The notes under the pieces: generated by a model
What the model was told of the DNA's origin: nothing
Databases searched by the model: none
The model's input: only the letters and a program-made list of their open reading frames with translations
Part shown: one piece after another, positions 7,151 through 16,525 of the stretch
Layout: each line of letters begins with the position of its first letter
Position numbering within the stretch: position 1 is the stretch's first letter
Program-made: the position numbers and the translations under genes
DNA from: an uncultured Massilimicrobiota sp.
GTDB lineage: Bacteria > Bacillota_I > Bacilli_A > Erysipelotrichales > Coprobacillaceae
Direction of reading: 5' to 3'
Length of the DNA stretch: 40,460 bases
NCBI GenBank assembly: GCA_944325245.1
Contig: CALUZM010000014.1
Location: 1 to 40,460 of the forward strand

Positions 7151-7188
7151 AAAATAACGAAGTGAATTTTATTTCACTTCGTTATTTT
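7151..7188. terminator. Bidirectional terminator between convergent genes
   Basis: A perfect 16-bp inverted repeat (7151-7166 and 7173-7188, six-base loop) has A runs on one side and T runs on the other, so it can act on both strands. Its right arm contains the stop codon of the reverse-strand DUF2200 gene. Confidence 0.85.
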
Positions 7189-7529
7189 CTTAATACTTTA
7201 TCTAAGCTTTTTCCTTGAGCCAGTTCATCTATCATTTTGTCAAGATAGCGAATATTTTTCATTATTGGATCTTCAATGGTTTCTAATTTGACACCACAGA
7301 TGCTACCTTTGATTAAAAATCTTTTTTCATTTAAGCACGGTGCCTGAAGAAAGAAGTGTTCATAATCAATAGGTGATTCTAACATTTCATGAATTTGATC
7401 CTGATGATAACCTGTTAACCATTGAATCACAGTGTTAACTTCTTCTTGGGTACGTCCTTTTTTCAATGCTTTTTGAAGCAGTAAAGAGTAGATTTGAGAA
7501 AAGGGCATTTGGAAGACTTTATGACTCAT
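7182..7529 (-). CDS. DUF2200 family protein
   Basis: This 115-residue protein matches what I know of DUF2200: an N-terminal VFxMPFSxIYxLxxxKA segment, KGRTQEEV and WLTGY, then CGVKLExIEDPxMxxIRYLDKxIDEL near the end. The length is normal for the family. The biochemical role is not established; the fold is small and cytoplasmic with no signal peptide. Its ATG overlaps the asd stop by one base (TAATG), so it is the last gene of the hom-ask-asd transcript and translationally coupled to asd. That placement does not by itself show a role in amino acid synthesis. Confidence 0.85.
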   Translation of the reverse strand: MSHKVFQMPFSQIYSLLLQKALKKGRTQEEVNTVIQWLTGYHQDQIHEMLESPIDYEHFFLQAPCLNEKRFLIKGSICGVKLETIEDPIMKNIRYLDKMIDELAQGKSLDKVLRK

Positions 7530-8563
7530 TATAATAATCCCATTTCAATCATCTTTAAACCGATATCAACAGAGTTATAAGCTGCGCCTTTCATTAACTG
7601 GTCAGCGACAATCCATAAGCTTAAAGCATGATCATTATCTAAATCTTTACGAACACGTCCCACATGGACAAGTTCATCACCAACAAAAAGATTGGCCATT
7701 GGATAAATCTGGTTTTCAATATCGTCATAGAGTTCTACACCATGAGAATGAGATAATAATTCAAAGACTTTATCAATGTCAATAGGTTTCTTTGTTTCAA
7801 TATAAACAGATTCACTATGCCCTCTGAGTACGGGAACACGTACACAAGTGGCATTGACTTTAATATCTTTATTAAAGATTTTCTTTGTTTCATTAACCAT
7901 TTTCATTTCTTCTTTTGTAAAATGATTATCTAAATCAAATTTATCAACTTGAGGAATACAGTTAAAAGCAATTGGGTAATGTTTTTTATCAGAAGCACAA
8001 GGCAATGTTTTAGCTACTGGTTCTTTACCATCTAAAACTTCTTGAGACTGACGATATAATTCTTCCATTCCGGCAACACCAGCACCTGAAACAGCCTGAT
8101 AAGTTGAAACAATGATTCTTTCAATATCAAAATATTCATTTAAACGATTTAAAGCACTGACCATTTGAATAGTTGTACAATTTGGATTGGCAATAATACC
8201 TTTATGGTCTTTTAAAGCATAGGCATTGACTTCTGGCACAACTAATGGCACATCAGGATCCATTCTAAAGTGAGATGTATTATCAATATTGATACATCCG
8301 GCTTTAACAGCATAAGGCATATATTTTTCAGAAATGCTTCCACCAGCACTCCAGAAAGCCACTTCAATATCTTCAAATGAATTTTCAGTTAATTCTTCAA
8401 CGACAAATTCATGACCTTCATACTCAATAACTTTTCCTGCACTTCTTGCAGAAGCTAATAATTTTAAACTTTCAAAAGGGAAGTGAAACTGAAAGATACA
8501 TCTTAACATTTCTCTTCCAACAGCACCTGTAGCACCGACAATTGCAACTTTATATTTTTTCAT
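7529..8563 (-). CDS. asd: Aspartate-semialdehyde dehydrogenase
   Basis: This enzyme reduces aspartyl phosphate to aspartate semialdehyde with NADPH, the branch point to lysine/diaminopimelate and to homoserine, threonine and methionine. The 344 residues begin with the Rossmann motif VGATGAVG (9-16). The catalytic cysteine is C129 in NPNCTT and the catalytic histidine is H249 in RGHSES. It lies 15 bases after aspartate kinase, so both enzymes of the shared upper pathway are made from one mRNA. The expected SD lies just upstream of ATG 8563. Length and motifs are normal and I see nothing broken. Confidence 0.97.
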   Translation of the reverse strand: MKKYKVAIVGATGAVGREMLRCIFQFHFPFESLKLLASARSAGKVIEYEGHEFVVEELTENSFEDIEVAFWSAGGSISEKYMPYAVKAGCINIDNTSHFRMDPDVPLVVPEVNAYALKDHKGIIANPNCTTIQMVSALNRLNEYFDIERIIVSTYQAVSGAGVAGMEELYRQSQEVLDGKEPVAKTLPCASDKKHYPIAFNCIPQVDKFDLDNHFTKEEMKMVNETKKIFNKDIKVNATCVRVPVLRGHSESVYIETKKPIDIDKVFELLSHSHGVELYDDIENQIYPMANLFVGDELVHVGRVRKDLDNDHALSLWIVADQLMKGAAYNSVDIGLKMIEMGLL

Positions 8564-8578
8564 TTTATATTTTCCTCC

Positions 8579-9808
8579 CTATCCTAAGAATGCTTCATGT
8601 AATAAAACTTGAGCTCTTTTGACATCATCTCGATCAATATAACAAGAAATATTAATTTCACTACAAGAAGTCATTTCCACATTGATATCATGACTCATGA
8701 GTGTATTATAAACTTTTTGGAACATTCCTTTATTATTTTTGATACCAACACCAATAACTGCAACTTTTCCAATATTGCCTCTCACAATGGTTTTTTGAGC
8801 CTGTAAAGTTTCTTTTAAATCATTAATCACTTCGACAACTGCGGGAACATCTTTATCATTGATAATTAAAGAAATATCCATTCTACCACCACCAACTAAT
8901 GCCTGACTAAAGACATTGACATTGACATTAGCATCCGCAATCTTTTCAAAAAGTTGACCAGCACCATTCACCTTGGCATCAACACCAACAAGAGTGATAC
9001 GTGCTTCATTTTGTGAACCCGTGATGCCTGATATAATAAATTGATTCAAATGATCTTTCATAATTTTTTCATCTCCTAACACATATGTTCCTTTGCTTTC
9101 ATCAAAAGAACTTCTGGCATGAATGACAATATCATGCTTAGCAGCTAATTGAACACAACGATGATTTAAGACTTTCGCACCATTTTTGGAAAGTTCCAGC
9201 ATTTCTGAATAACTGATATAATCTAATTTCTTTGCATCAGGAACAATGCGAGGATCAGCCGTATAAATACCGTTAACATCACTATATATTTCCACTTCGT
9301 TGGCATCAATTGCCACACCAATAGCGACGGCAGACAAGTCACTACCTCCACGTCCTAGAGTCGTAATCTTACCATTTTGAGAATATCCCTGAAAACCAGG
9401 ACAAATGACAATGTCTGCATTTTTTAATTTATCAAGAATATGACGGCCTTCAACTGTCGTAATCGTTGCATTCTGATGATGAGAATCTGTGAGAATACCT
9501 AATTCAGCATTCGTGACAGTTTCGACTTTATAGCCTTTATCAGCCAGTTCGCTTTTGACAACAAGAGTTGAAATGGTTTCTCCAATACTTGTCAAACGAT
9601 CAATTTCTTCATCAGTTAATTGGTTTGTATGAACAATCGATAAAAGGGTATCCGTTGCATAAGGATCATCGTATCGACCCATGGCACTGACAACGGCTAC
9701 GACTTTGTTTCCTAGATTGTGTTCACGAATGATGTTTTTATACATGTGTTCACGTGTCTCGATACTACGTGTTGAGGTTCCTCCAAATTTTTGAACAATG
9801 ATTTTCAT
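8579..9808 (-). CDS. Aspartate kinase with C-terminal ACT domains
   Basis: This phosphorylates aspartate, the committed step of the aspartate family. The 409 residues start with the kinase motif KFGGTS (7-12), with the substrate-binding glycine-rich segment GRGGSD at about 153-158. Two ACT domains follow (about 265-335 and 345-405), which in LysC-type enzymes bind lysine and/or threonine for feedback inhibition. It is monofunctional, not fused to homoserine dehydrogenase, and sits six bases after hom. The effector cannot be predicted safely, but co-transcription with hom under a Thr/Ile-rich leader suggests a threonine-directed isozyme. Symbols lysC, ask or thrA-like would all be used by different annotators. 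Confidence 0.95.
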   Translation of the reverse strand: MKIIVQKFGGTSTRSIETREHMYKNIIREHNLGNKVVAVVSAMGRYDDPYATDTLLSIVHTNQLTDEEIDRLTSIGETISTLVVKSELADKGYKVETVTNAELGILTDSHHQNATITTVEGRHILDKLKNADIVICPGFQGYSQNGKITTLGRGGSDLSAVAIGVAIDANEVEIYSDVNGIYTADPRIVPDAKKLDYISYSEMLELSKNGAKVLNHRCVQLAAKHDIVIHARSSFDESKGTYVLGDEKIMKDHLNQFIISGITGSQNEARITLVGVDAKVNGAGQLFEKIADANVNVNVFSQALVGGGRMDISLIINDKDVPAVVEVINDLKETLQAQKTIVRGNIGKVAVIGVGIKNNKGMFQKVYNTLMSHDINVEMTSCSEINISCYIDRDDVKRAQVLLHEAFLG

Positions 9809-9814
9809 GTTGTC

Positions 9815-10969
9815 TTAACCCCTTACTTTTAATAAACTATAGGTTTCTCCACTAAGCTGTTGTTGAAGTTGTGACAGCTCAAGTGGATTTGTAATATAGA
9901 TATGATCATGATCTTGTGAAAAATACATTTCATAATCAATATCCAATGGATGATCACATCTAATATAATATTGAGAATATGTAATTGGATAAATGTTTTC
10001 AACATACTGATATTGATGTTTCCACATCGTTGGCTGATGTGTTTTCATAATATCACTGACAACAGCACTGGCTGTCACATAACGACCAGCACCTTTACCA
10101 TAGAAAATAACATTCTCCAAATAGTTACAAGTTAATTCTACTACATTATATGCTTGATTGACATTTCCAACAATGTCTTTTATACCAACTAATGTTGGTG
10201 AAACATCAATACCATAACCCTGATCTATTTTTTTCGCTTGTGCAATCAATTTAATACGATATCCTAATTTCTTTGCATAATCGATATCTTTTTTTGTCAC
10301 CTGACGAATTCCTGTGCATTGAATTTTATCAAAGTCAAAGAAGATTTCAAAAGCATTCATAGCAAGAATATAGATTTTATGTGCCGCATCAATACCATCT
10401 AAATCCAGACTGGCATCAGCTTCTACATACCCTAATCCATCCGCAATTGTTAAAGCTTCCTGGAAATCTAAATTATCTGTTTCCATCAGCGATAAGATAA
10501 AGTTTGTTGTTCCATTTAAGATACCTTCAATTTTTTCTATTTCATTAGCAATTAAATCTTCTTTTGCAGGGACAACAACAGGAATACCTCCACCAACAGC
10601 AGCTTCATAATAGATTTTCGCATGATTGTCTTCAGCAACCTGAAAAATCTCCTGGGCATGATGGGCAATCAAAGCTTTATTGGCTGTGACAACATGTTTT
10701 CCTTTTTTGAGTGCTTCGATAATAATCTTTTTAGCAATAGTCGTTCCACCAATCAGTTCAACCACGACATCGACTTCTTCATCATTTAAAACATCCTGAA
10801 AATCTTGTGTGAAGATAACACCATCAGGTAAAGTGACTTCATCTAATGCACAACCATATTTGACAGTGACTTCTTCTTGAATTGCTTTTTCTAATCGCTC
10901 TTTTTGTTGTGTTAAGATTTCAACAACACCAAAACCAACAGTTCCTAAACCGATGACACCAATTTTCAT
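9815..10969 (-). CDS. hom: Homoserine dehydrogenase
   Basis: This enzyme reduces aspartate semialdehyde to homoserine. The 384 residues show the Rossmann GLGTVGFGV (7-15), the TANKALIAHH segment, and the catalytic/substrate region GILNGTTNFIL with GYVEADASLDLDG. The enzyme is shorter than the usual 400-430 residues. After about residue 325 the expected ACT domain is replaced by a short divergent tail ending SLLKVRG, so allosteric threonine inhibition may be reduced or absent. The SD GAGGGGG lies six bases before the ATG, and the start overlaps the leader ORF stop by four bases (ATGA). First structural gene of the hom-ask-asd-DUF2200 operon. Confidence 0.96.
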   Translation of the reverse strand: MKIGVIGLGTVGFGVVEILTQQKERLEKAIQEEVTVKYGCALDEVTLPDGVIFTQDFQDVLNDEEVDVVVELIGGTTIAKKIIIEALKKGKHVVTANKALIAHHAQEIFQVAEDNHAKIYYEAAVGGGIPVVVPAKEDLIANEIEKIEGILNGTTNFILSLMETDNLDFQEALTIADGLGYVEADASLDLDGIDAAHKIYILAMNAFEIFFDFDKIQCTGIRQVTKKDIDYAKKLGYRIKLIAQAKKIDQGYGIDVSPTLVGIKDIVGNVNQAYNVVELTCNYLENVIFYGKGAGRYVTASAVVSDIMKTHQPTMWKHQYQYVENIYPITYSQYYIRCDHPLDIDYEMYFSQDHDHIYITNPLELSQLQQQLSGETYSLLKVRG

Positions 10970-11097
10970 ATGATACCCCCTCTAAATAAAAAAATCTCAT
11001 TTGACATGAGACATTTGTTTTCATTGACAAAATCAAGACAGTCTCTTTCCCCAACACTCAAAAAACATTGAATTCTTGTCATAGTAGTGGTTATCAT
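10966..11097 (-). CDS. Thr/Ile-rich leader ORF upstream of hom
   Basis: This 43-codon ORF starts MITTTMTRI: six of the first nine codons are Thr or Ile, the end products of this pathway. A strong SD AAAGGAGG (11109-11116) sits 11 bases upstream, and a near-consensus promoter places the transcript start just before it, so the leader is the first thing translated. It resembles enterobacterial thrL, though I know of no such leader in this group. Unlike thrL, the frame does not close before the terminator: it runs through the hairpin and stops overlapping the hom ATG (ATGA). It may therefore act by translational coupling as well as, or instead of, attenuation. A longer start near 11187 would lie upstream of the promoter and is unlikely. 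Confidence 0.6.
   Translation of the reverse strand: MITTTMTRIQCFLSVGERDCLDFVNENKCLMSNEIFLFRGGII
10988..11011 (-). terminator. Candidate attenuator hairpin in the hom leader
   Basis: On the reverse strand TCTCAT and ATGAGA form a six-bp stem with a five-base loop followed by seven T. An upstream GAGAC (complement of 11041-11045) could pair with GTCTC (complement of 11008-11012) in the left arm and act as an antiterminator. The stem is short, so its strength is uncertain. Confidence 0.55.
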
Positions 11098-11128
11098 TAT
11101 TGAGACGTCCTCCTTTGTTATTGCATTG

Positions 11129-11157
11129 ATAATATCATTTTTGTATGCGTTTGTCAA
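11129..11157 (-). promoter_or_regulatory. Sigma-A promoter of the hom operon
   Basis: Reverse strand: TTGACA (11152-11157), 17-base spacer, TATTAT (11129-11134). Transcription would start near 11122, just upstream of the leader SD. Confidence 0.85.
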
Positions 11158-16447: not shown

Positions 16448-16473
16448 AAAAGAGATGGTGAGCCATCTCTTTT
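16448..16473 (-). terminator. Riboswitch expression-platform terminator
   Basis: AAAAGAGATGG and CCATCTCTTTT form an 11-bp stem with a four-base loop, directly after the preQ1 aptamer on the reverse strand. The T run is only four bases before a C, so termination may be leaky. Confidence 0.75.
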
Positions 16474-16511
16474 CCTTAGTTTTTTATACTGGGTTTGGCT
16501 CTCGAACCAGT
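16474..16511 (-). promoter_or_regulatory. preQ1-I riboswitch aptamer
   Basis: The reverse-strand sequence has the preQ1-I layout: P1 stem CTGG/CCAG, a C-rich loop (GAGAGCCAAACC), then the A-rich tail TATAAAAAACTAAGG that folds back into a pseudoknot. Its 3' end touches the terminator. preQ1 binding should stop transcription of the transporter and the queL-like gene. Confidence 0.9.
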
Positions 16512-16525
16512 GTTATAACATTAAC

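Follow-up and report, generated by a model that had tools for sequence, protein, structure and literature searches.

The stretch of DNA analysed here (the window) spans 40,460 nucleotides and comes from genome G000, which, judged by its hom gene, is closest to Massilimicrobiota (87–90% identical), a genus of Bacillota placed in the Erysipelotrichaceae by NCBI and in the Coprobacillaceae by GTDB. Pfam assignments on the minus strand identify hom (homoserine dehydrogenase, 9815–10969), ask (aspartate kinase, with AA_kinase and ACT domains, 8579–9808) and asd (aspartate-semialdehyde dehydrogenase, 7529–8563). A DUF2200 gene (7182–7529, minus strand) lies directly 3′ of asd and apparently belongs to the same operon.

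The region from 11157 down to 10966 on the minus strand carries, in this order, a promoter, a strong Shine-Dalgarno sequence (SD), a leader reading frame beginning MITTTMTRI, and a hairpin followed by seven T residues, after which hom-ask-asd begins; an earlier note on this DNA had listed these same elements, and all are present. The sigma-A promoter (TTGACA-17-TATTAT, 11129–11157) has 11 of 12 consensus matches, with TTGACA at 11157–11152 and TATTAT at 11134–11129. The leader SD, AAAGGAGGA (11108–11116), overlaps a strand that we call segment 1 (AGGACGTCTC, 11102–11111), whose predicted partner is segment 2 (GAGACTGTCTT, 11035–11045) in an anti-antiterminator stem. Segment 2 has an alternative partner in segment 3 (GTCTC, 11008–11012), the 5′ arm of the terminator, to which its GAGAC (11045–11041) is complementary. 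Segment 3 may also pair with segment 4 in the intrinsic terminator GTCTCATGTCAAATGAGAT plus T run (10988–11012, with the hairpin at 11012–10994). The hom gene has a strong SD of its own, AGAGGGGG (10976–10983).

The leader frame (MITTTMTRIQCFLSVG...GGII, 10966–11097) starts with an ATG at 11097, holds its putative control codons at positions 2–9 and continues for 43 codons (full translation MITTTMTRIQCFLSVGERDCLDFVNENKCLMSNEIFLFRGGII) to a TGA at 10968–10966. It thus runs through the hairpin and shares four bases, ATGA, with the hom start codon (10969–10967). This geometry, described in the earlier note as departing from the classical model, was found as stated.

Searches of the leader against all families of Rfam (release 15) gave only chance matches, none reaching a gathering threshold, and the T-box covariance model (RF00230) did not match the hom region of the window or of any relative tested. 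The same model has 19 matches elsewhere in G000, 18 of them above the family cut-off. A PreQ1 riboswitch aptamer scoring 48.2 bits, above the Rfam threshold, is located at 16470–16516 (minus strand) of the window.

The spacer of the hom promoter in relatives carries (A/T)TGTATACAA, a palindrome that is also found at the thrC promoter, which suggests that a common repressor of threonine genes may act there. The form TTGTATACAA covers the thrC-thrB promoter of G000 (L065, 2869–2879) and recurs, identical or differing at a single position, in the hom promoter spacers of L018, L022, L037, L040, L044 and others; at the hom promoter of the window it is degenerate (ACGCATACAA). The hom genes of L070–L076, from another family of the order, have no leader, and most of them have ACAAGTGTTTTT beside the promoter and a divergent neighbouring gene.

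Leader peptides and competing pairings in relatives

Upstream regions of hom were taken from 40 genomes of the family with a match. A leader and a terminator-like hairpin were recognized in 32 of them, which entered the pairing analyses; in the remaining eight, distributed over seven genera (for example, Kandleria L038 and Eggerthia L062), hom is preceded by nothing more than a promoter or by another type of short hairpin. In L033 and L034 (g18), where there is no Thr leader, a different short hairpin, GAGAAGC...GCTTCTTTTT, precedes hom.

Leaders with a good SD precede hom in ten genera. Examples, each ending at a stop codon, are MITINISKTIMCFSNC (Ca. Stoquefichus), MIKTINSSKTIMCLIYC (Longibaculum), MMTIITIIDAFNK (g12), MLSMGISLTITITSNSIITPIK (g4), MYKMMTMCISN (Beduini) and MLTMIYVLR (g13). 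A short predicted reading frame with an SD upstream of a biosynthetic gene, as expected of an attenuator, is therefore present, and its codons are those of the pathway: Thr, Ile and Met, which are products downstream of homoserine, together make up 0.454 of the residues after the start, compared with 0.264 in dinucleotide shuffles (averaged by genus; 0/1000 shuffles reached the observed value). Taken singly, Met (0/1000), Ile (1/1000) and Thr (40/1000) differ in strength, and Ser is likewise enriched (0/1000). Four of the first seven codons of the window leader encode Thr, and 27 of 1663 stop-free shuffles attain the Thr+Ile content of its first 16 residues.

The pairing of segments 1 and 2 (1:2) has predicted duplex energies of −13 to −32 kcal/mol across relatives; in L020 and L021, which have short loops, the duplex was not measurable with the cut used. 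The stem is stronger than in shuffled sequences at p ≤ 0.03 in 23 of the 32 sequences; the duplex of the window itself (p = 0.07) is below the strength seen in the relatives. RNAalifold predicted this stem unprompted in both alignments, that of the clade of the window and that of g4. Its cells are paired in 96% and 94% of cases, respectively, compared to 35–59% once the partner strand is slid. Changes on both sides of the stem are in moderate excess in g4 (pairs, 26/500 shuffles; covariation score, 1/500), whereas the clade of the window shows no excess of covariation over shuffles. In the free state, pairing of the leader SD region amounts to 45–100% in all sequences measured, L063 (0.10) being the exception.

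Support for an attenuator is weakest for the antiterminator pairing (2:3). Its cells are paired in 93% of cases in g4 and 75% in the clade of the window, with no two-sided covariation in either. Little variation would be expected of a strand constrained by two partners, which is an argument rather than evidence. In the window, the GAGAC:GTCTC duplex has 5 bp and is not beyond chance when considered alone (p = 0.56), and the total minimum free energy of the leader is uninformative, since it is not unusual (z = 0.13). The predicted 1:2, 2:3 and 3:4 pairings are mutually exclusive, as in an attenuator, although 2:3 is weak in the window.

Ribosome masking and a proposed mechanism

Folding at equilibrium with ribosome masks was dropped in favour of a truncated, co-transcriptional version. 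Most sequences, the window among them, favour the finished terminator under equilibrium conditions; therefore, the antiterminator would have to act kinetically, which is usual for attenuators. In the adopted version, folding covered the transcript as far as the terminator loop; a ribosome footprint of 29 nt was set on each codon in turn, and the share of the terminator 5′ arm captured upstream was read out. The positive control, E. coli thrL, responded with +0.35 over the Thr/Ile run, turning to −0.3 at its end. In L060, capture is 0.97–0.99 with the ribosome on MITIKTII and 0.01–0.11 at DAFKK and the stop. In the window, capture rises by 0.12 to 0.24 when codons 3–9 (TTTMTRI) occupy the A site and hardly changes for almost every other codon. 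Placing codon 4 or 5 in the A site yields a best fold of the window that contains GAGAC:GTCTC, the very antiterminator that had been proposed from inspection of the DNA. The predicted switch in the window is nonetheless shallow, because capture in the free state is already 0.54.

Compared with shuffles of the segment 2 region, the difference between masked and free states is significant in the window (p = 0.02) and was reached by 0/200 shuffles in L030, L039, L044, L046, L055 and L060; L024, L026, L028 and L056 showed no effect in this test. Across genera, Thr, Ile and Met codons coincide with the positions at which masking frees segment 2 (p = 0.0035), as the control codons of an attenuator should, with no single amino acid significant alone. 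Enrichment, pairings and masking in the relatives hence give good support to the proposal in the earlier note of a thrL-like Thr/Ile leader and attenuator before hom.

We consider it probable that a ribosome-mediated transcription attenuator sets expression of hom-ask-asd according to how far tRNA-Thr is charged; across the family as a whole, Ile and Met would be sensed too. The parts, the enriched codons, the predicted 1:2 stem and the mutually exclusive predicted folds can be read from the DNA; stalling, antitermination and the response to amino acids are what we infer. When amino acids are plentiful, the leader ribosome would clear the first codons, allowing segment 1, with the leader SD region, to pair with segment 2 and the 3:4 terminator to form. 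When Thr or Ile is short, the ribosome would stall within the first ∼9 codons and cover segment 1, segment 2 would capture the 5′ arm of the terminator, and RNA polymerase would read into hom. The short Thr/Ile-rich peptide would thus most probably serve as a sensor by which a good supply of these amino acids halts transcription.

As the decision would be made by a ribosome near the leader start, the leader stop seems dispensable. A stop before segment 2 belongs to the classical geometry and is not essential to the attenuation mechanism. Such a stop is found in most relatives and is missing in the window, whose leader we therefore class as a variant attenuator. A more tentative extension, which we would rate below an even chance, is that the attenuator is gated at the start: since the leader SD belongs to segment 1, what is sensed may be the presence of a ribosome at the leader start, with neither pace matching between transcription and translation nor a leader stop needed. 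A ribosome stalled just after initiation would not have to stay together with the polymerase. In B. subtilis, according to Johnson et al. 2020 as covered in a review (PMC7858274), polymerase outruns the ribosome; by analogy, such independence would fit these Bacillota if transcription runs ahead in them as well. Start-gating, if true, would be a form of attenuation suited to bacteria of this kind and would account for the recurrent loss of the stop (window, L018, L027, L039 and L064).

Loss of leader parts and alternative readings

The five leaders just listed run through segment 2, whereas most leaders in relatives are short and stop far upstream of hom. The window leader aligns with that of L023, with ...TGT TTT TTG AAT TGT TAA in L023 and ...TGT TTT TTG AGT GTT GGG in the window, so that the end of the peptide changes from ...CFLNC and a stop in relatives to ...CFLSVG.... 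Because the window leader is homologous to these short, stop-bearing leaders, its overlap with hom is best explained as a derived loss of the ancestral stop. The suggestion in the earlier note of a different design consequently holds in one respect, the inclusion of the leader SD in the anti-antiterminator stem, which is common to the relatives, and not in the other, the overlap with hom.

Conservation of the Thr codons, proposed earlier as a check, fails within the genus of the window and holds in sister genera. Four species of the genus (L018–L021) have no Thr run; L019–L021 have no leader frame with a good SD, and L018 keeps a different one. These losses point to the main rival explanation, that the ancestral attenuator worked and is now a decaying relic in this genus, with the stop lost in the window and Thr codons or the ATG lost in its sisters, such that the window leader is unresponsive and only control at the promoter and a weak constitutive terminator are left. 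The shallow switch and the 5-bp antiterminator of the window are consistent with decay. However, the window retains an intact SD and promoter, its switch exceeds that of shuffles, and its responsive codons match the run containing four Thr codons. Moreover, the hom tree groups the other four members of the genus, all without the Thr leader, as sister to the window and places the loss of that leader after the lineage of the window split off. We regard decay in the window as unlikely, albeit deserving of more weight than the other rivals.

The hairpin, conservation of which was another check proposed at the outset, is kept even in L018–L021. Hairpin and terminator persist without a Thr leader in eight species (L018–L021, L025, L026, L029 and L031), as might be expected if the SD hairpin and terminator were conserved as such and sensed by a protein or ligand, the leader peptide being an occasional by-product. 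Against this stand the strong enrichment of Thr, Ile and Met codons, matched to position, the sequence of the stem outside the SD, which differs between clades in a manner unlike a binding site, and the lack of any Rfam match, and we find this explanation improbable. In g8 (L025, L026 and L029) and g15 (L031), the leader start codon is missing and the SD GGAGGA and SD hairpin are retained. An AUU codon is located 7 nt 3′ of the SD in g8; AUU was considered as the leader start in these leaderless groups and was not adopted, as nothing beyond the SD spacing speaks for it.

Least credible is control of hom translation by coupling, with the leader frame translated into hom through ATGA: the four-base overlap is exact, but it is conserved in no relative, most leaders end far upstream, a separate strong SD (AGAGGGGG) precedes hom and the frame is open to hom in about 7% of shuffles, which is not beyond chance. 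The notion of coupling by design, raised in the earlier note, was thus not borne out, the leaders of relatives being short with a stop and the long frame not conserved. In L018, the long frame has a different phase and its end lies in the terminator. Given such differences in frame between species, the idea that the long leader is conserved as a peptide or for coupling was rejected.

Transcription attenuation by a leader ribosome accordingly remains our preferred reading. The comparison of 40 relatives identifies a widespread putative ribosome-mediated attenuator at hom that is absent from Rfam, spread over a family of gut Bacillota, with leader codons covering three products of the pathway of hom itself. 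The leader SD inside the switch, together with the natural losses of stops and leaders, provides a ready series for testing what an attenuator requires.

Comparison with known attenuators

The best-known cases of leader-peptide attenuation at amino-acid operons come from proteobacteria, and T-boxes dominate in Bacillota, where, to our knowledge, few leader-peptide attenuators of amino-acid operons have been demonstrated. A literature search found no hom/thr leader peptide in Bacillota, which is not proof of absence. Like the hom leaders, E. coli thrL (thrABC) is a Thr/Ile-rich leader before a homoserine dehydrogenase gene with mutually exclusive pairings, and it has the same response profile in the masking simulation. 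It differs in that its SD is unpaired (0.09), whereas the leader SD here lies within segment 1 and is 0.45–1.0 paired except in L063. Furthermore, thrL stops soon after its control codons, whereas the stop is not fixed in the hom leaders of Coprobacillaceae, which have control codons from codon 2–3 onwards and added Met codons. T-boxes (RF00230) similarly sense tRNA charging and control a terminator, but none matches at hom. A survey of Actinobacteria detected no RNA structure at the threonine operons of that group and attributed threonine attenuators to other species (PMC1262725).

In Gram-positive bacteria, bmrB-bmrCD of B. subtilis (PMC4191407) is a ribosome-mediated attenuator in which leader translation likewise controls transcription attenuation, with antibiotics rather than amino-acid starvation as the signal. 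The closest precedent in Bacillota is ilv-leu of S. aureus, in which a Leu-rich leader mediates ribosome-dependent attenuation of an amino-acid operon (PMC5794164). As may hold at hom, a leader-peptide attenuator is combined there with a repressor acting at the promoter (CodY); its Leu/Ile codons, branched-chain amino-acid operon, taxon and RNA are different. Given this precedent, the hom leader would represent a variant of a form of attenuation already known in Bacillota.
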